A DNA stretch of 64,000 bases from Pontederia crassipes (lineage: Eukaryota; Streptophyta; Magnoliopsida; Commelinales; Pontederiaceae): NCBI GenBank assembly GCA_030549335.1, contig CM060194.1, positions 59,734,547 to 59,798,546 of the forward strand, in the 5' to 3' direction. Positions 1,223 to 56,931 of this stretch are shown piece by piece. Numbering within the stretch: the stretch's first letter is position 1; each line of letters begins with the position of its first letter. A program made the position numbers and the translations under genes. The notes below the pieces were generated by a model. That model was not told where the DNA came from. It was given only the letters and a program-made list of their open reading frames with translations, and made no database searches.

Positions 1223-4200
1223 TGAATAGGATACATATGGGAAAAACTAGTTAGAAGTTAAATTGAAAGTTCCATGAGCCGTGATAAGGAATCATGAGCC
1301 ATGAAATTCGAGCACAAAATGAAAACATTCTTCTAATGGTGTGAAAATTAGTATGAGCTTTAGTTCTTTATTTTATGGATTGTGACATTTGTCTTACAGG
1401 ACATGCCAATTGAAAATGAACTTGTAAGCTCGAAGAGTAGATTATGAGTTGTAATCCTCACAATCCATTTCGCAAAATTACTAGCAATGTATGAGTTGTG
1501 AATCATCAAATGAAAATTGGCTAACAAACTATGATCAAGTCAATCTAAGCTGTGAGCAACTAGTGAGAAATTATCAATTCATTATTATGGTTATGACCAA
1601 GATGTCAAGAGCATATGTATGTTAAGTCATGGCCATGAAAATATTATCAGAGGCCATGAAATGCTTTGTCTTACTAATTAATTAAACTTTTATTGCTATG
1701 CTATACTATAATGAGTTATTAATGATATTCCTACTTATGAATTAATATGTAAGATTATGAAACATGCTATAGATTTTTCTAAGTAACGATGTCATGATAT
1801 GATTGACATGAATGTTTATCTCACATAAATATTGAATTCCATGGTAAGTCATAGTGTTAAAAGTAGTATTGCATTAAAGCAACACATTGAATTTAACTTT
1901 GATTCTTTGATGACTGATTCGCAAAAGTGTATATAGAGAATATTGCAAGAAAGGGGAGGCAAAGGCCTCTAAGACATAGGTCTACCCAATACTCAAGCGT
2001 ATAAACCTTTGACACAAGAATATATAACGAATGAAGTTTTAAAATTTGTAATATCTCTACACTATCGAAATGCGATCCACAAGTGTACGGTGTATCATTG
2101 TAGTGCTTGAGGTTCGCAAAATCTTTGAGAAAATCCTTCGGAGTATTGGTAAAAAGTGAATGCTGAAAACAAAAAAAAAGATGATAAAAAAATGTGACAT
2201 AAAAAGAGGTTAAACATTTTTTGTGATTTTTGAAATATAGAAGAAGAAGCGATGCAAGAGTGATGATTAGTATTATGATAAAAGGCAAGGCGATAGGTTG
2301 AGAGCACGTGTTGAGAACTTATGGGAGATGCTTTTGTCTTGGGATTAAAAGTTATTTAGTTTGACATGTTATAGGCAAAATAACTGAGTCCCCCTTTCCA
2401 ACGAGAGTTAGATCGATTTCAATAATAAAGACACTCGACTCTGCACCTACACGTCCGTGTTGGTAGAAAGACTGTGCTTACATGCATGAAGGGAGTTCGT
2501 AAAAGGAAGAATCCATGTTATCGTCATAATACAAATTGCGCTTTCCTTTAGGATTTGAGTCTAAGTTTTGTGTCTACGGAGTATTAAAATTCAAAAGGAG
2601 TACACCTAATAGAAGGAGGCTACGGTCGGCTCACGCTTGCCTTAGTGGAATGTAGATCGCCCTCTCGGGTAGAATGCAAAATATTAGTATTTCCAAGACG
2701 GCTTAGACACTTTCGCAGGAGAAGAAAAGTTCGATTCAGAAAGTATGAGATGAGTTTACTGGAAGTTCTCAAAAGTAACTCATCTCTTGTTTACCCGACG
2801 CGGGTCATAATCTTGAATGAGCATTTGAAGGATATCGTGCCTTGAATCGAACTTCCGGTAAACTCGAAAAAAAATCAAAAGCAACAATGGTGAAGTAGAA
2901 ATCTACGCACATCCTTTAAAACCGTCCAAAATGATCCCAAACTTCTGACTCAGTTTGGTCATTTATTGCCAGAAATCCGGAGTACACTCAACCTTCTCAA
3001 GTCACATATTAAAGGTTGAACGACGTCTAAGCTATATTACAAAAAAAACTCCATTGCTGATTCCGCGAAAACTAACACCATGAATTACTCTTTACTTTAG
3101 GCCAGATTTCTTCATGTTCAGTCGCTATGGAGCATATAACATCCCTACGCTCGGGGTGCAAAGCAGCAAGTGATTCAGAAAACTTCTCCTACACCTATAA
3201 TCACACTGAAAACACAGGAACTACACGCGGAAATATTTTCATCCAAGCTAGATTTCTTCACGTTCGGTCGTGATGGAGCCTAAAATGTCCTTATGATCGA
3301 GGGTGTAAGATGAAGATAGTTCATAAACTCAATTCTATACACAGGTTTAGAAGACATGGAATCAGCACTTTGATATTATCAAAATCACAGGAAAGCTCAA
3401 TACTTGGCATCAATCATGAAGAAAATCAAAATGAAACACAACTAAAGAACATGCATCCCAGTCGCATAAGCACCTCTCGGTCTCAGTAGGGTCAGTTAGT
3501 TATAAGTCATTTTGCGAACACACACTTCTCCACAAATTTTCAAAAGCATTGTTTTCGACTCTCTTTCTCTCTTCTTTCTGGTTTTCTTCTCTCTTCTCCC
3601 TAAAAGAGCCCCACTTCTTCTTGCCTCTTTTTCCTCCTTTTATACTCTCCCTCTCTCCCAATCTGCAGGCTGCGATAGCTTTTGTTTGTGGTCCCCTGTT
3701 CTTGAGGGAAGCTTCCTTGTACTAGAGAAATGTAGAAGCATGCTGGTCCTCAATCATGGATGGTGTTTGCTATTTTGCTTTCTTTTTTGCTCCTGGTGTA
3801 GCCTGCCTGGTAGCAAACCACTAGGCCTCAATAGTGCCTGGTTCAATTGCTCTACTCTATCACATGGAGCTTATCAGCTCTCTTGCAGAAAGGGATTTTA
3901 ATCCGAGTAAATTTTCAAACTAGCAAGATCAAACTTTAGTAATAATATGCAGATGGTCATTTATGCGGAGAATTTTTGAAATGTAATGAATTCATGCCAT
4001 GCACATGTTCTAGGTAAAGAAATAATTCTAGAATAAGTGCAATGTGCATGCAAAATAGTAAGGAAATTATAAACCAAAATTCTCCACATCAATGACTTAA
4101 TTTCTTGTTATGGATTCTAGGTGGGAGTAAATGTGACAACCTTCGTTGTGTCTATTTGGGTGCAGATGCAACCTGACTTAACTAGCCATATGGCATTAAA

Positions 4201-7306: not shown

Positions 7307-7513
7307 TATATGTGTGAAAAAAAAACTCCGTCTATGTTTTATAGCCGATCTCAAGTCCGGATAAAAGGAGGAGGGTTGTGTTAGGCCCCGACAGCCAGCG
7401 TAAAATTCTGTCAAATCTCATGAACATGCATGGATCAACGAATGACGTCGTATGATCCATGTAGCCGACCCCACCTAGTGGGATAAGGCTTTGCTGTTGT
7501 TGTTGTATATGTG
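7307..7513 (+). mobile_element. SINE, (TTG)n-tailed
   Basis: A roughly 190-bp repeat (7315-7505) ending in GGGATAAGGCTTTGCTGTTG and further TTG units. The conserved core CCCACCTAGTGGGATAAGGC and the TTG tail match the 3' end of a widespread plant SINE of the Au type (family assignment from memory, moderate). Flanks carry TATATGTG on both sides (7307-7314 and 7506-7513), a short and probably eroded target-site duplication. Two further copies occur at 7584-7628 and 21584-21755. Confidence 0.72.
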
Positions 7514-7567: not shown

Positions 7568-7644
7568 AAATCAATTAAGATTACAACAACAACAACAACA
7601 AAGCCTTATCCCACTAGGTGGGGTCGACAAATCAATTAAGATTA
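7568..7644 (-). mobile_element. 5'-truncated SINE copy with perfect TSD
   Basis: Only 45 bases of the SINE 3' end are present (7584-7628), starting with the CAA-repeat tail when read on the plus strand. The insert is flanked by a perfect 16-bp direct repeat AAATCAATTAAGATTA at 7568-7583 and 7629-7644. This is a textbook target-primed reverse transcription product that stopped after 45 bases. It sits 71 bases from the larger SINE in inverted orientation. Confidence 0.85.
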
Positions 7645-8717: not shown

Positions 8718-10178
8718 ATGGTGAAGATTTGCTGCATTGGAGCAGGCTACGTCGGCGGTCCGACCATGGCCGTCATTGCCCTCAAGTCTCCGTCCATCGA
8801 GGTGGTCGTCGTCGACATCTCCCTCGGCCGCATCAACGCGTGGAACAGCGACCACCTTCCCATCTACGAGCCGGGACTCGACGACGTCGTCAGGCAGTGC
8901 CGCGGGAGGAACCTCTTCTTCAGCACCGACGTGGAGAAGCACGTCTCCGAGGCCGACATCGTCTTCGTCTCCGTCAACACCCCCACAAAGCACCGCGGCC
9001 TCGGCGCCGGAAAGGCCGCCGACCTGACCTACTGGGAGAGCGCCGCGCGCATGATCGCCAACGTCTCCAAGTCCGACAAGATCGTGGTCGAGAAGTCCAC
9101 CGTCCCCGTGAAGACCGCCGAGGCCATCGAGAGGATCCTGAACCACAACAGCAAAGGGATCAAGTACCAGATCCTCTCGAACCCGGAGTTCCTCGCCGAG
9201 GGCACCGCCGTCCGAGACCTGCTCGAGCCCGACCGCGTTCTCATCGGCGGCCGGGAGACGGCGGAGGGCCGCAGGGCCGTTCGGGCGCTGAGAGACGTCT
9301 ACGCCAACTGGGTGCCGCAGGATCGCATCGTCACGACCAACTTGTGGTCCGCGGAGCTGTCGAAGCTCGCGGCCAACGCGTTCCTGGCCCAGAGGATTTC
9401 CTCCGTCAACGCGCTGTCCGCGCTCTGCGAGGCAACCTGCGCCGACGTCTCTCAGGTGGCTCACGCCGTGGGGAAGGATTCCAGGGTCGGTCCCAAGTTC
9501 CTGAGCGCGAGCGTCGGGTTCGGCGGCTCCTGCTTCCAGAAGGATGTCCTCAACTTGGTGTACATCTGCGAGTGCAACGGCCTCGCGGAGGTGGCCGACT
9601 ACTGGAGGCAGGTCATCAGGATTAACGACTACCAGAAGAGCCGCTTCGTCAACCGCGTGGTATCCTCCATGTTCAACACCGTCTCCGGCAAAAAGATCGC
9701 CGTCCTCGGGTTCGCGTTCAAGAAGGACACCGGTGACACGAGGGAGACCCCCGCGATGGACGTGTGCAAGGGGCTACTGGGGGACAAGGCCACGCTCAGC
9801 ATCTACGACCCGCAGGTGACCGAGGACCAGATACGGCGTGACCTCGCCTCCGTGGACGAGCGCGACTGGGTCGATCACCCGCATGATCAGCTGCTGCGGC
9901 GCCCGCTGAGCCCGTCGGTGGCCGAGAAGCAGGTGACGGTGGCGCAGGACGCATACGAGGCCGCGGAGGGCGCGCACGGAGTCTGCATCCTGACGGAGTG
10001 GGACGAGTTCCAGCGGCTGGATTACGAGAGGATCTACGAGAGCATGCGGAAGCCGGCGTTCGTCTTCGACGGGCGCAACGTGGTGGATCCGGAGAAGCTG
10101 CGCGCAATCGGGTTCGTGGTGTACGCCATCGGTAAGCCTCTGGATGCGTGGTTGAAGGGCATGCCCGCCGTAGCATGA
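8718..10178 (+). CDS. UGD: UDP-glucose 6-dehydrogenase
   Basis: Cytosolic enzyme that oxidises UDP-glucose twice with NAD+ to UDP-glucuronate, the precursor of UDP-xylose, UDP-arabinose and pectin/hemicellulose sugars. The 486-residue product is close to the usual plant length of about 480 and is encoded by one uninterrupted exon. Visible motifs: N-terminal Rossmann GAGYVGG (glycines 8, 10, 13), [10 protein letters not shown] at 155-164, the conserved lysine in [11 protein letters not shown] at 216, and the catalytic cysteine in [10 protein letters not shown] at residue 272. The C-terminal UDP-binding domain ends with ILTEWDEF and FDGRNV motifs. The start is the first ATG after the leader-intron acceptor and gives the canonical [15 protein letters not shown]-terminus. 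Codon third positions are strongly G/C, unlike the AT-rich flanks, as in many monocot genes. It is convergent with helicase copy A. Confidence 0.97.
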
Positions 10179-10710
10179 TGGAAGCGGAGCAATAATATTG
10201 TGCTTTTAATTATGCTATTTTTTTCGTACGCCATTGTTAATTTACTGCTTTTTTTCTTTCTCTAAAAGACTTATGGAGTTGGCTACGTTTATTTTATCAC
10301 TTTCTTGTTTATAGTTATATCTATATTGTGCTTTTAAATATTGCTTCCATGCAAAATTAAAACGGTTGTAAAACCATAAAATTAATATACACCAATGTTG
10401 TTAATATGAGGATCTTATGTTGTTATAAGTCGTCAAATCGAATAAAGAAAGTATTTTAGTAAAAAATATTTTAAAAAATAAAATTTAAAAAATATGAGGA
10501 TCTTGTGCAAGTACATGAAAATTCCAACACGGAATGAAAGTACGTACAAATTCGAACCTAATGGAATCAATCCTTTCTTTTCGCTGGAAAATTGGTTCTT
10601 GTATCCCAAACCTCAAACTCAAAGTATAGCCGTGCGCCTTCCCTGGTAGCTGGGGAAAAGCAAAAGTAGTGCGCTCCTTGCGCCTGCATTTGCTCGTGCG
10701 CCTTCCCCTG
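10179..10710. other. convergent intergenic region (UGD / helicase A 3' ends)
   Basis: AT-rich spacer between two genes transcribed toward each other. It should hold both 3'UTRs. AATAAA-like signals occur around 10440 on the plus strand. From about 10490 rightward the sequence is recognisably related to 42130-42430 downstream of helicase copy B, so the duplicated segment begins near 10490. Confidence 0.6.
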
Positions 10711-17901
<7,191 letters not shown>

Positions 17902-19442
17902 CTACACAGTACTGGAAGTTCTTAGAACTCATTCTAGAAACATGATAAACTACTTAAGAAAAATCAAATTCATGTGAACTTATTTGAACCATAAAAGCAC
18001 TGGCTAACAGATACTACAATTATTGTATCTTTAAAGCAGGGCAAAACTAAAGATCATGGAGATTATGTGTTTAAGCATGATGTAGAACTGATTGTCCAAG
18101 AGAAAAAATGTAAGAAACACCCAATTTGCTTTTGAGCTGCCAAGAAAATGCTGAAAATAGATCCTAGTCAATCACTTAGAACTCATCCAGAATTATAAAA
18201 TAAGTTATCCAACATGATAAAATCTAAAAGCTAATTGCATTAAGAAGTTTCTCTAGCTGTAGGTTTTAACTAAAAACAAAGCAGTGCAACCAAAGTTGAA
18301 AATGGCAGGAGACAATATCAAATGGAAGTTAAACTGAAAGTAACAAAGAAAAATCATGGCTAAGCAGTAGCAGAGATTTATAAGTATGGAACATGGCCCT
18401 GTAGATAGTTTTTGGCTTTTAAGGATCACACCTATCGATGTTGTCAAATACGTAAAGGCAGCCGGGAGAACACAAAATCATATACACGTGTAACATGACA
18501 TGGCCGATTCTACTAGAAAAAATATTTTATATATTAACTAGCATAGATAAAAATAATATATGGCATTTTTTAAAAAATGAAGCAGAATTTTCAACTTAGA
18601 ATCATCGAACCATCGACGAAGTTCATACAAAATGAAAATTGTCAAATGATCATATGCCTACAACTATATTAATTGTATGTTTTAACACACTAATCAATGA
18701 ACAAGTAACAAGTAGATGGAGGCACAAAAAAATAACTTAATCTAACATTCTACCCCCACCCCACCCCTTAGTTCAACTATTTGCAAACATACAGAGAAAG
18801 GAGGGACCAAGCTCGATTCCTCTGTTCGCAAACACACAGAAAAGGGAGGGAGGTTCCTCTGTTCACAAACACAAAGAGCAAGAGGGAGGGAGGATGCAAA
18901 CAATCTCCAACAGAGAGAGGAGTAGGATGCTAACATTCATAAATATGTAGAGAAAGAGGGAGGGAGGGCGTACTGACGGCGGTAGAAAGGGAGGGTAGAC
19001 AGAGGTGGCTATAGGGGCGAACGACCCAAGCGGTGGCTGCAGGGATGAATAGCACGAGCAGGGGCGTGATAAGATTCTTTACTAATATAATAATATTAGA
19101 AGTAGGAATAGTTAGTTTTCCTTTTATTAGTATTAGCTATTTACTTCCTAATTTGATTAGCACTCTTTTTTTATTTCTAGTTCTACTAGGACTTGTTTGA
19201 GTTTACCCTATAAATAGGGACCCTTTTTAATCATGCATATGAGAAGTAATTTTCTTTTGATAATTGCTTAGAGCAAGTATTTTGGATGCTTGACCCCTCG
19301 AAGTGATCTATTGGATGCTTGATCCCCTCGAAGTGATCTAAAAGGATCCTAATTCGACTAGGAACTTGTATCAGAATTGTTCGATCCTCATCGGACAATT
19401 GTGATATCTCGGATATTTTGTTGGACCAATAACCTAATTACT

Positions 19443-21540: not shown

Positions 21541-21567
21541 TGGTGTTCAAGTGGATTACCTCTCAAT

Positions 21568-21580
21568 TATGCATCGAGTC

Positions 21581-21612
<32 letters not shown>

Positions 21613-22371
21613 AGCCTTATCCCACTAGGTGGGGTCGACTACATATTCGTTGATCCATGTTCATGAGATTCGACAGGATTTTACGCTGGCTGTCGGGGCC
21701 TAACACAACCCTCCTCCTTTATCCGGGCTTGGGACCGGCTATAAAACATAGGCGGAGTTTTATCATAAAGGAAACATTATCATAAAGGAATATAGAGCGA
21801 ATTAACAAGTGAGATCACTTAATTTGACTGACAAGATTAGCCCAGCAGTTGATACCTGAGGATTAGACTAGCAGTTGGTATTCTCCCATCTAAAAGAAGT
21901 GATGATGAAGCATAAAGTGGCTATTAGGAGTTTTTTTTACCATATGTATATTTAATGGTTCTTGATCACCTTGTGGATTCCTAGCGGGTGCTAGTGGTAG
22001 CTCTTACTGGGATCAGTTGATTATTTTAATGTAGGATTTTGTATTTATCGCAAATCAAAGGGCGAACAAGAAAAACTTAAGATTCCCTAACTAAGAAGAG
22101 ATTAAGTCAAGGTTTCCTTCTGCTTACTAGATTATATTTTCCATTCACTTCTTATCAAAGATAGAGAAAATACCAGGCCCTGGACGAAATCCTTTGAAAG
22201 GATCTTCTGCATTGATACGACACTCGATTGAATGTCCTCTCAAAACAATATCTTCCTGCTTGTAAGTCAGTCTCTCTCCAAGCGCCACTTTAATTTGTTC
22301 TTCAATTAGATCAGTTGAGTAAATCATCTCGGTGACAGGATGCTCCACCTGGATCTATGCATCGAGTCAAC
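21568..22371 (-). mobile_element. SINE-tailed retroinsertion carrying a gene exon
   Basis: A 772-bp insert (21584-22355) lies between perfect 16-bp copies of TATGCATCGAGTCAAC (21568-21583 and 22356-22371); removing the insert rejoins the gypsy internal sequence. On the minus strand the insert reads: biotin carboxylase exon (22355-22174), its intron beginning with a proper GT donor (22173 downward), then a SINE (about 21755-21612) ending in a (TTG)n tail that abuts the target-site duplication. The tail position, long perfect duplication and 5' truncation inside coding sequence are what LINE-driven target-primed reverse transcription of one continuous unspliced RNA would leave. Confidence 0.8.
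22174..22355 (-). pseudogene. CAC2: accC / biotin carboxylase exon fragment
   Basis: One captured exon of the plastid heteromeric acetyl-CoA carboxylase biotin carboxylase subunit. The translation [11 protein letters not shown]...DLIEEQI, then [20 protein letters not shown], is a near-perfect match to the conserved substrate-binding part of the ATP-grasp/biotin carboxylase domain. The exon ends at CCAGGGCCTG followed by an intact GT donor, so it derives from genomic DNA or unspliced RNA rather than mature mRNA. The frame is open across the exon. It is a fragment and cannot encode the enzyme. Confidence 0.88.
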
Positions 22372-22514
22372 GTATGGAAATAATTATATCGAAGAATCAA
22401 CTTATTGAACGAGTCACTAAGAAGAAGAACTTACCCTGGCATAACACAAGGCAGTCAAGATTAATTCTTCCTCAAGAATATCATCATGTACCACAAGCTT
22501 GCAAAAAGAAAATA

Positions 22515-23336
22515 TGTTAAATAATGCCTTGAATCATACTTTAACTGAAAATCTGTTTGGATCCAAAGAAGTAATAGAGAGACTTCGAGAGATGCTTGGA
22601 CGAGAAGTGCAAGGTCGAAAGGATTCCTACTTCTAGTAGGAATAGGAGTCGGCCGGTTTCCGATGTCGAGAAGGATACGACGGATTCTTGGAGGGCCGAG
22701 CTCCCTTCTGGACCGAAGAGCACTTGGATATGAAGTCTGGACGTAGAGGAAGACTTGAAGACAGCAGGGATGCCTGGAGGAGTCCCAGTCCGAGTGGGAC
22801 TCGGACTGGATAGCCAGGGCGTGGCGGGCGCCAAGTGGGCGCCTGACCCAATTTGATTCTAGGGAGGAATTCAAGTTGGTCGAGATCTTCAAGGGTCTTC
22901 AGGAAGTCAGATTTCTACTCCTAGTCCAAGGAGGTTTTTCTAGAGAAGGGACTTACATGCCTAGTAGGATTAGGTCCTTAAGTTAGAGTAGGAGTTGTTT
23001 CTCCAAGGCCCTATAAAAGGACTTGTAATCAAGGCTTGTAAGATCATCCTAGATAATCCTGGATCATCTGATCTTGTAATCCTCTTCTGTTTCTTCCATC
23101 TAATACAATTCTGCGTTGCCTTAAATTTCTCGGGTTTTCTCGCGATGCGTAATTTCTCTCGTGCAGAAATCGTAACAAACCCTTCTCGACATCAGAAACC
23201 GGCCGACTCCTATTCCTGGATCATCTGATCTTGTAATCCTCTTCTGTTTCTTCCATCTAATACAATTCTGCGTCGCCTTAAATTTCTCGGGTTTTCTCGC
23301 GATGCGTAATTTCTCTCGTGCAGAAAAATTCTAACA
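22515..23336 (+). repeat. copia 5' LTR with inverted/direct self-duplication
   Basis: The canonical 663-bp LTR (22515-23177) is followed by a 36-base inverted copy of its own interior (23180-23215, complementary to about 22645-22680 with one mismatch). A second direct copy of its 3' end follows (about 23214-23336), with the primer binding site after it. The TATAAAAGG box near 23014 is the likely LTR promoter TATA. The arrangement suggests a template switch during reverse transcription. Confidence 0.88.
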
Positions 23337-23660: not shown

Positions 23661-23688
23661 TTGTAGGATTCAATTCAAGGTGGAGATT

Positions 23689-24352
23689 TGTTAAATAATG
23701 CCTTGAATCCTACTTTAACTGAAAATCTGTTTGGATCCAAAAAAAGTAATAGAGAGACTTCGAGAGATGCTTGGACGAGAAGTGCAAGGTCGAAAGGATT
23801 CCTACTTCTAGTAGGAATAGGAGTCGGCCGGTTTCCGATGTCGAGAAGGATATGGCGGATTCTTGGAGGGCCGAGCTCCCTTCTGGACCGAAGAGCACTT
23901 GGATATGAAGTCTGGACGTAGAGGAAGACTTGAAGACAGCAGGGATGCCTGGAGGAGTCCCAGTCCGAGTGGGACTCGGACTGGACAGCCAGGGCGTGGC
24001 GGGCGCCAGGTGGGCGCCTGACCCAATTTGATTCTAGGGAGGAATTCAAGTTGGTCGAGATCTTCAAGGGTCTTCAGGAAGTCAGATTTCTACTCCTAGT
24101 CCAAGGAGGTTTTTCTAGAGAAGGGACTTACATGCCTAGTAGGATTAGGTCCTTAAGTTAGAGTAGGAGTTGTTTCTCCAAGGCCCTATAAAAGGACTTG
24201 TAATCAAGGCTTGTAAGACCATCCTGGATAATCCTGGATCATCTGATCTTGTAATCTTCTTCTGTTTCTTCCATCTAATACAATTCTGCGTCGCCTTAAA
24301 TTTCTCGGATTTTCTCGCGATGCGTAATTTCTCTCGTGCAGAAATCGTAACA
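23689..24352 (+). repeat. copia 3' LTR
   Basis: 664-bp LTR, TG...CA ends, nearly identical to the 5' LTR. It lacks the inverted duplication seen in the 5' LTR, so that rearrangement was not copied to both ends. Confidence 0.93.
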
Positions 24353-24999
24353 AAATAGTAGTTCTTCATCGCAAGGAACAATTTTCTAAATTTGTTGCTC
24401 CTACAAAGTATAATACAAAAGAGGGGGGAATGATAAGATTCTTTATTAATATAATAATATTAGCAGTAGGAATAGTTAATTTTCGTTTGATTCAATTAGC
24501 ACTCTTTTTTCTTTTATTTTTAATTATACTGAGACTTAGGGAGCATGGAACCTTTTTAATCAGAAAATAATTGCTTTAAGGCAAGTACAGTGAGCATCCA
24601 CATACAGAGATAAAGAGGGACTAGGGAGGGAGGGCATACCAGCAACCGAAGAAAGCGAATGAATATCACGAGCGGACGGCGGCAAGAGGTTAACGGTAGC
24701 TGCAGGGCCTAACAACGCAAGCAGTAGCAGTACGAGAAGGCGCAGCTGTAGGCGGCGAACAGTGCAAGAAAGGGCTGCGGCATCGAACGCCAGCAGTAGT
24801 GAACGAACAACGAGAGTTGCAGCAGCGGCGTCGCAGCTGACGAAAAAGGATTAGGGATTCTGCGAAGGCCAGTTGCGTGGGGTTCTCAGGTGGGCGAACG
24901 AGCGGGAGGAAAAAAAACGGATCGGCGGACTCGCGATTCCACCATTTTTACATGCTGGAACGCGATTCAGGTTCGATCTCTTCGATGGAATCAAATAGT

Positions 25000-38045: not shown

Positions 38046-39040
38046 GGGAGTAAATTACAAGATTAGTCCTTCAACTTTGAATCATTTTTAAATCGGTCAC
38101 TCCATTTCAATTTATAATCAGAACGTCTTTCATTTTTAATTTTCTTACATGATTAGTCCTCTTGATCGGTGATAGCCTCGATTGTCTTGCGTACGTAGCC
38201 GACACGTGAGTCATTTCTCTCTCATTCATGTCATTTAACACTACAAAAATGGATAAATTATACGGATCGTCCTCCAACTTTGAGTCGATTTGTAAACAGT
38301 CCTCCAATTTTAATATTATTGTACGATTCATCCACTTGACCGTAAGAGATAGTCTCCCGATTATCTTGCTGACATGACATAATAAAATATAATAAAATAA
38401 TAATTTATTGACATGGCACAATAAAAAATAAAAATATTAATAATTAACAAAAAAAATAAAAAATGCAGAGGATGCCGACGAGCTCGCGAGGGGTGTTGGC
38501 GCCTCTTGTGCAAAGTTCGCCAAAGGACAAGCTTAGAGAGGGGGGACGACCCCCCGTGCCAGCTCGTTAAAGGGCGAGCTTGGAGAGGGGGGCCGGCACC
38601 CCTCTCTACGAGCTCGCTCACATCCTTAAATTTTTATAATATTATTTTTTATTGTGTGATGTCAGCTAGCTATATTTTTTTATTATATTTTATTACATCA
38701 CGTCAGTAAGATAATCGAAAAATTGAAGTGGATGAATCGTACAATAATATAAAAGTTGAGAGATCGTTTAAAAATCGACTCAAAGTTAGAGGACGATCCG
38801 TGTAATTTATCCGATTTTATAGCATTAAATGACGTGGATGACTTAAATGACGTGGATGAGAGAGAAATGTCTCACGTATCGACCACGTATGCAAGACAAT
38901 CAAAAAATCCACTATCACCGATCAAGAGGACTAATCGTACAAAAAAATCAAAGATGAAAGATATTCTGATTACAAATTAAAATTAAAAGATCAATTTAAA
39001 AATGATTCAAAATTAGAAGATTAATCGTGTAATTTACCCC
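38046..39040. mobile_element. MITE with long inverted arms, hosting a second MITE
   Basis: Outer arms start GAGTAAATTACAAGATTAGTCC (38048) and end with its near-complement ATCGTGTAATTTACCCC (39040). The arms extend about 200 bases on each side up to 38250 and from 38813. The family is related in sequence and architecture to the MITE at 28759-29451 (GTAAATTAC...TCCAACTTT start). The inner element at 38251-38812 occupies its centre. Confidence 0.78.
38251..38812. mobile_element. inner MITE at the dyad of the outer MITE
   Basis: Ends GGATAAATTATACGGATCGTCC at 38251 and the near-complement GGACGATCCGTGTAATTTATCC at 38812, arms about 150 bases. The GC-rich centre (38470-38625) has duplicated CTCGCxxAAGGxCxAGCTTxGAGAGGGG blocks. 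No direct target-site duplication is visible at its borders; the outer sequence on both sides is instead mutually complementary. Confidence 0.72.
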
Positions 39041-41312: not shown

Positions 41313-42432
41313 TGGTAAATATTAAAAATATATATTTATAAATAATATATATTGATAAATTTGTTGTTAATTCATATTTATATTAATTTTTAAATTAAAT
41401 AACCTGAAAAGAGTAAGAACTAAAAGGGCAAACTTATATTCTTCTAAATTAATTTTATTATCATGAATACATTTTATTATTATTTAAACAATTATAATAA
41501 TCCTATAAATAGTATTTTATAATCAGGTATTACCATAAGCTCGTGCAATAAAAAATAGAATTTTATTAAAATCTTTGTAATTATTTTTGAACCTTAACAA
41601 CATTGGTTACCACGTCTAATTCGAACTTTGGAGCTCGGCCATGACGTTTGGATGTGGCTAATGAATCTATAATATTTATTCAAGGTTCCGTGCAAATATA
41701 CATAAACAAAGAGATATTTCCACTTTGATCGGGGAGTTTCTGAAAGTGAAAAGGATGCTGCAATCATCCAACTTTATTGCTCGGGCTGATATATACAAGT
41801 TCAAGTTGCAGTGTCGCACCATGTAATGTGTCATTAACATCACATTCTCCACATAGCATTGCTCCCATTTGATCGGGGGGTACAAAAGATTTAGTTGCTA
41901 TTGGTACAAATTAACTATTTCATATCGCGCGGTTACAAAAAATTAAACAATTTTACGACTTGCTGTCAAAACTGCTTTCATTCAGTTTATCGAAATAAAC
42001 GTTACAAGATCATAATCCTAATGGAAGCAATCCTAGTTTGTGTTGTGCTGTTATATCTGTTCCCAGTAAGGATTTGGATTTTGAAACCTAACATGGTCTT
42101 GTTTGAAACCTAACATGGTCTCATAATCATGAGATCAGGGACACTGCGCAAGTATATGTAAAATTCCAGCATAAGGAATTATGATATGTACAAACGTCCA
42201 GTAACATTAGACTATAGGTGTCATCCTTTCTTTTCGCTGAAAATTGGTTCTTCTATCCCAATCTCAAACTCAAAAAGTATCGAATATAGGTGTCATCCTT
42301 TCTTTTCGCTGGAAAATTGGTTCTCTCCCAATCTCAAACTCAAAAAGTATCGCCGTGCGCCATCCCTGGTAGCTGGGAAAAAGCAAAAGTAATGCGAACC
42401 TTGCGCCTGCATTTGCTTGTCCACCTTCCCTG
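41313..42432. other. 3' flank of helicase copy B
   Basis: Non-coding. From about 42130 to the stop codon the sequence parallels 10490-10710 beyond copy A. It contains an extra 72-base tandem duplication (42213-42284 and 42285-42350, starting TATAGGTGTCATCCTTTC) that copy A lacks; it probably lies in the 3'UTR. Confidence 0.6.

Positions 42433-56931
<14,499 letters not shown>

Follow-up and report, generated by a model that had tools for sequence, protein, structure and literature searches.

Probable 5′ transduction of a partly spliced biotin carboxylase fragment from the tail of an intronic RTE-derived element in a plant genome

How did a fragment of the fatty-acid-synthesis gene for biotin carboxylase (BC), still attached to part of an intron and to the tail of a short repetitive element, come to lie between perfect direct repeats on a plant chromosome? 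The window, that is the whole stretch of 64,000 nucleotides analysed here (C12:59734547–59798546 of a 1.13-Gb genome), carries an insert of 772 bp (21584–22355) between two copies of TATGCATCGAGTCAAC, and their identity at 16/16 positions confirms what the preliminary description had claimed. Direct-repeat comparison places one copy of this target-site duplication at the tail end (21568–21583) and the other at the 5′-truncated cDNA end (22356–22371), while any 16-bp direct repeat occurred in 3 of 2000 random 2-kb sequences of a first-order Markov control. The TATGCATCGAGTCAAC pair also abuts the element tail exactly, and since the GTTG of the tail-side copy can be assigned equally to the tail, the duplication measures 12–16 bp. 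Read on the minus strand, the first duplication copy is followed by BC coding sequence, a GT donor with its intron, a 176-bp element ending in (TTG)n and the second copy, with one single outer duplication enclosing the BC part and the element together.

When the two flanks were joined without the insert, they matched related repeat copies uninterrupted across the junction at 38 of 43 other places (68–90% identity), indicating that relatives of the surrounding repeat have the insertion site in its empty state. This search scored the best 40 of 57 candidates and listed 45 places, two of which are the window’s own flanks; the remaining five of the 43 are pieces of the left flank only. Searched alone, the left flank gave matches to neighbouring repeat copies that end near 21555 at almost every one of 39 other listed places.

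The coding part of the insert is BC (the best solved-structure relative is a biotin carboxylase, E 1.4e-32), and its minus-strand codons run up to ...GFRPGPG, where a GT donor follows. Translation and alignment to the BC gene on C3 bear out the earlier claim of BC coding sequence followed by an intact GT donor and intron. In minus-strand order, exon N contributes its terminal 7 nt (GATCCAG; 22349–22355), fused directly to exon N+1 (93 bp, 31 residues; 22256–22348), followed by exon N+2 (82 bp, 28 residues; 22174–22255) and by the retained 5′ part (414 bp; 21760–22173) of the element-bearing intron, which starts at the GT donor. At the splice junction between the two exons (22255–22256, minus strand), a 114-bp GT-AG intron of C3 (GTGTATTTGG...TTGACAACAG), which splits the exons in the parent, is removed to the base. 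An 85-bp intron of the parent was probably removed by splicing as well, as the insert bases fit the exon end at 7/7 positions and the C3 intron end at 6/7, that is with one extra matching base. Hence, the earlier description of the piece as unspliced is wrong in part: one intron is kept, one upstream intron is precisely gone and a further one probably so. Since only the element-bearing intron is kept whereas the upstream intron(s) are missing, the intermediate would have been a partly spliced RNA, and the precise loss of the 114-bp intron makes the case for an RNA step stronger than in the earlier reading. Intron removal as the mark of an RNA intermediate is found in the BC insert and, with 104 bp, also in a further insert (L041, see below).

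Apart from the query locus and element copies, a whole-genome search with the insert retrieved two gene loci among the best 40 of 1033 candidates. The locus on C3 matches with 97% identity over query positions 29–696 and 98% over 688–794, whereas the match on C4 (94% over 202–696 and 688–794) leaves out the element. Correspondingly, the element-bearing intron spans 644 bp in C3 versus 480 bp in C4: the C3 intron holds the element at the same position and in the same orientation as the insert, and the intron of the C4 paralogue is without it. The preliminary description had proposed to inspect the parental intron after the VEHPVTEM exon, and the presence of the element there in C3, together with its absence from C4, supports its core idea that BC exon, intron and intronic element tail were reverse transcribed as one RNA unit. 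The parental C3 intron continues past the tail, where the insert stops. In the BC gene on C3 (L009), the 85-bp intron before the VEHPVTEM exon is of the GC-AG type (GCATTTGG), and that of the C4 paralogue is GT-AG.

C3 and the insert differ at 11 of 755 aligned columns, eight of which fall at the border between tail and parental intron and three elsewhere. At a substitution rate of 1.3e-8 per site per year, as in grasses, the latter three differences point to a young event, in the order of 10^5 years. The tail reads GGCTTTG+(TTG)4 in C3 versus GGCTTTG+(TTG)10 in the insert, where the last TTG lies within the duplicated bases; the TTG tail was lengthened at insertion or later.

The borders of the element also bear on the order of events. 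At the element site, the C4 intron reads ...TTCCTTTATGATAATGTTTCCTATGAAG... and has no element. In the insert, TTCCTTTATGATAATGTTTCCT is followed by TTATGATAA and then by the element, and in C3, TTTCCTATG is present beyond the tail and the near side has one 17-bp unit fewer than the insert. According to the C3/C4 alignment, a 14-bp unit that includes TGTTTCCT stands twice at 17-bp spacing directly upstream of the element in the window (21760–21790, minus strand), and once in present-day C3. TGTTTCCT is a probable short 5′ duplication from the element’s own earlier insertion into the BC intron, which in C3 amounts to about 8 bp (TGTTTCCT) followed by 9 bp of local filler. On the simplest reading, the element entered the BC intron first, with the short TGTTTCCT duplication and a little local filler, and the transduced copy either predates the 17-bp loss in C3 or came from an allele still holding these 17 bp. 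As C3 is without a 17-bp unit that the insert has kept, the present-day parent is not letter-for-letter the source.

The element itself (21584–21759, minus strand; 176 bp including the (TTG)n tail, with its 5′ end AACTCCGCC at 21759) aligns in two parts to a LINE: nt 1–117 correspond to LINE nt 2–118 (95.7%) and nt 116–165 to LINE nt 3125–3174 (96%). Judged by this alignment, it is an internally deleted RTE-type LINE of this genome. A tRNA-derived SINE was rejected because the 5′ part is the LINE’s own 5′ end, and ARAGORN found no tRNA in the window. Of the SINE with a (TTG)n tail that had been described, the tail at one end of the insert thus stands, but the SINE identity does not. The LINE (L042) measures 3174 bp, is flanked by a 19-bp duplication, encodes an endonuclease domain and an RVT_1 domain, each in an open stretch of its own, and has the same tail; a candidate 3-kb host capture at this locus was discarded, as it is the complete-length LINE. 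The two domains, the (TTG)n tail and a C-terminal motif, which we take to be RTE-type, would assign it to the RTE-type LINEs. The short element and this LINE have the 3′ end and the (TTG)n tail in common within one genome, as in non-autonomous elements mobilised by RTE. The exact 33-base 3′ end occurs in 18,490 genome copies (9308 forward, 9182 reverse) and the reversed control pattern in none; a set of viral contigs contained no exact match to either of two element patterns. The tail plus duplication search also found a 45-bp 5′-truncated tail copy in the window (7584–7628, minus strand) between perfect 16-bp duplications AAATCAATTAAGATTA (7568–7583 and 7629–7644), and the similarity search an older copy of the short element (7323–7505, plus strand; 85% identity) with a degenerate duplication TATATGTG... 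(12/16). Tail-only insertions resembling window 7568–7644 are also present at L059, L067 and L085. Ohshima 2013 (PMC3747384) counts seven families of RTE LINEs in flowering plants, each of which terminates in (TTG)n or (TTGATG)n.

Tails of this type were surveyed at 86 places: 74 from a list of C1 copies, six at element-similar loci, three in the window, two at the BC locus and one at a parent locus. The C1-list tails, in 70 loci, stem from the first 100 of the 18,490 exact copies and are a non-random sample, all near the start of C1. Upstream DNA was examined over 1.5, 4 or 1.2 kb per tail, depending on the batch, and exact duplications only were considered, so that longer or older captures may be missed. 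Duplications of at least 12 bp, with a mean of 16.4 bp, were found at 54 of the 86 tails. For an earlier set, exact duplications of at least 12 bp accompanied 41 of 65 tails versus 16 of 277 shifted anchors, and those of at least 14 bp 37 of 65 versus 9 of 277. Among the C1-list tails, 47 of 74 have a duplication of at least 12 bp and 27 have none. Nineteen of these 47 start at the element 5′ end, 25 are truncated copies, LINEs or others (including L026 and L028 with small extras), and three carry host DNA from another locus (3/47, 95% interval 1.3–17.5%; 3/74 over all). The proposed search for other non-SINE DNA ending in this tail with duplications yielded L041, L035 and L039 in the C1 sample.

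Several candidates were not counted as host-gene captures. The extra ~50 bp at L026, considered as such a capture, look by eye like the 3′ flank of the insertion site in inverted orientation, which suggests that insertion involved a jump to local target DNA, and the extra 22 bp at L028 are element sequence. L082, with exons upstream of the tail that are presumably syntaxin-like, and L046, with extra DNA upstream of a short tail, were left out of the count since no duplication was found.

The insert at L041 comprises 377 bp between 17-bp duplications, and its host part derives from a C13 gene whose 104-bp GT-AG intron is precisely removed. In the C13 parent, the same truncated element follows shortly after a stop in the open frame, and these alignments make L041 a second clean case of 5′ transduction. 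Pfam gave no match for the gene. A paralogue on C14 has a (TTG)5 stretch at this place but no element core, so that it is not a plain empty site. The parent search used as query a stretch offset by 15 bases from the extra piece, and 1.5 kb of upstream sequence in the C13 parent contained no match to the first ~9 nt of the L041 host part. L090 (C1:28372750–28373650) likewise combines the last exon of this gene with the element, making it a third such place; there, about 16 bp of the intron end precede the exon, and no clear duplication is seen.

The other two cases are of a different make. L035 is a 952-bp insert with a 14-bp duplication and CPI1-like exons, the gene being, as we assume from the peptide, cycloeucalenol-cycloisomerase-like; Pfam gave no support for this name. 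The GT-AG introns of 81 and 683 bp in the C7 parent are absent, and apparent later introns are kept. At the junction, both the C7 and the C8 parent are free of an element; the short tail insertion that C7 carries 5′ of the junction is a different one and is absent in L035. This points to a probable template switch onto partly spliced RNA, or else to an element in a lost allele. The best match to L035, the CPI1-like gene on C7 (L063), is without 79 bp, apparently including an exon end, which are present in L035 and C8. L039 holds a bromodomain exon (Pfam) with unspliced introns between 22-bp duplications; its C9 and C10 parents do not have the terminal element at the junction and carry 72 bp of other DNA there. 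By its sequence, L039 is a composite in which intron removal is not seen. As the parents of L035 and L039 are without an element at the junction, template switching probably also operates in this genome.

For the BC insert, we are highly confident that target-primed reverse transcription by the RTE machinery started from the intronic (UUG)n tail within BC pre-mRNA, which would constitute a 5′ transduction. According to this model, a short, internally deleted RTE-type LINE would first have inserted in sense orientation into the C3 BC intron. Later, a BC pre-mRNA from which the upstream intron(s) had already been removed, with the element-bearing intron still in place, would have been bound at the element 3′ tail by the RTE machinery, whose protein presumably acted in trans. 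First-strand synthesis would start in the (UUG)n repeat on the nicked chromosomal target, go back through element, intron and two exons, and stop 7 nt into the preceding exon, generating the 5′ truncation; joining would then leave the 12–16-bp duplication. The spliced upstream exon implies that the transcript started at an upstream promoter, presumably that of BC. The BC and L041 parents both continue past the tail and nothing of this continuation is found in the copies, arguing that synthesis began in the tail, which would fit internal initiation in a longer RNA and an RNA ending at the tail alike. The loss of upstream and retention of downstream introns in the BC insert and L035 is what would be expected for nascent transcripts spliced from the 5′ end. 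In both donor (C3) and copy, host DNA lies directly 5′ of the element, and in the copy a single target-site duplication encloses both, as in a 5′ transduction; unlike an L1-type processed pseudogene, the insert ends in (TTG)n instead of poly(A) and partly retains one intron. Hence, of the formerly proposed 5′ transduction by a SINE, the transduction is supported, but the mobilising element is a LINE derivative.

Alternatively, an independent element RNA could have served as the first template, with synthesis then switching to a BC pre-mRNA. L035 and L039, which end in element tails and whose parents have no element at the junction, provide probable precedents for such a template switch, but the C3 intron passes without a break into the same element at this junction, which makes an exact landing there superfluous, and we regard this route as improbable for the BC insert. 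Even less likely is a patch at the DNA level, in which BC genomic DNA is copied into a staggered double-strand break: it would account for the retained intron, and filler insertions in plants can produce duplications, yet DNA copying does not precisely remove a parental intron, and the insert ends exactly at a tail type that comes with duplications of at least 12 bp in the majority of C1-list tails (47/74). Equally slight is the probability that a BC fragment and then the element inserted independently at the window site. The short inner duplication TGTTTCCT adjoining the element might be read in this way, and separate duplications around exon and element had been named as the observation that would speak against a single event. 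However, the far copy of TGTTTCCT lies beyond the tail in the C3 intron, indicating that the element entered in the parent, and one outer duplication flanks the whole insert. The element does have a short duplication of its own, but this was acquired earlier in the parental intron and is nested. We therefore retain 5′ transduction from the intronic tail as the preferred explanation.

Pack-MULEs, Helitrons and LTR elements are regarded as the main agents of gene-fragment shuffling in plants. Semi-processed, intron-retaining retrogenes such as rodent insulin are known; the BC insert differs from these in ending in an intronic element tail without poly(A). The tail of the human SVA elements is poly(A), whereas the BC insert is a plant case with an RTE-derived element, a (TTG)n tail not of the L1/poly(A) kind, and the element inside a retained intron. 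5′ transduction as such has been described for SVA elements in the accessible sections of a 2026 review (PMC13317346, reference there Damert et al. 2009), and there as here, a non-autonomous element takes along the host DNA that lies upstream of it, in sense direction (PMC13317346). The same sections give 5′ transduction as unreported in plants, and plant SINE/LINE transduction literature, with subscription journals thinly covered, contained no earlier case like the BC insert among the matches listed. Thus, the kind of event is already known from SVA; what appears to be new, on these searches, is the plant form with an RTE tail, an intronic element, a partly spliced host part and an identified donor. 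The tobacco TS SINE and RTE-1_STu likewise have a (TTG)n tail and a LINE 3′ end in common, but the window’s short element also has the LINE’s own 5′ end; closest to it, as far as the accessible text goes, are the mammalian RTE1-N1_LA, MAR4 and Bov-A2, given there as “5′-end of RTE” or BovB (PMC3747384). An Arabidopsis retroCNV also keeps an intron, but it is flanked by LTR retrotransposon pieces (PMC4838847). Chimeric Sadhu retroposons are plant non-LTR copies with extra sequence, too; for these, template switching was suggested and 150 bp “may have been transduced”, and no donor gene or spliced exons are reported in the available portion (PMC2848041). For the BC case, a single genome provides the donor, the paralogue without the element, the copy, its duplications and the evidence of intron removal.

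RTE-derived elements in introns can thereby supply a start point for copying and relocate gene parts, and the pattern of kept and removed introns preserves how far the template had been spliced, which suggests a nascent nuclear transcript. There is perhaps an even chance that RTE tails represent a general exon-moving engine, in which tails in introns and 3′ UTRs would lead to copying of nascent, partly spliced RNAs and template switching would add more. If so, given at least 18,490 tails and three of 47 sampled duplicated tails with host DNA, between several hundred and more than a thousand fragments of host genes may lie scattered over the genome.

The window has further features. Stretches 10570–18435 and 42223–55804 form a segmental duplication of ~84–86% identity with two helicase (Helicase_C + HA2) gene parts, and a self-inverted repeat of nearly 1 kb (~71% identity) lies at 38047–39040. 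Direct repeats of ~669 bp (22512–23179 and 23686–24354), 98% identical and 1.17 kb apart with smaller related pieces nearby, are possibly a young small LTR element. Finally, one long open frame of 486 aa at 8718–10178, in a GC-rich stretch, encodes UDP-glucose dehydrogenase.
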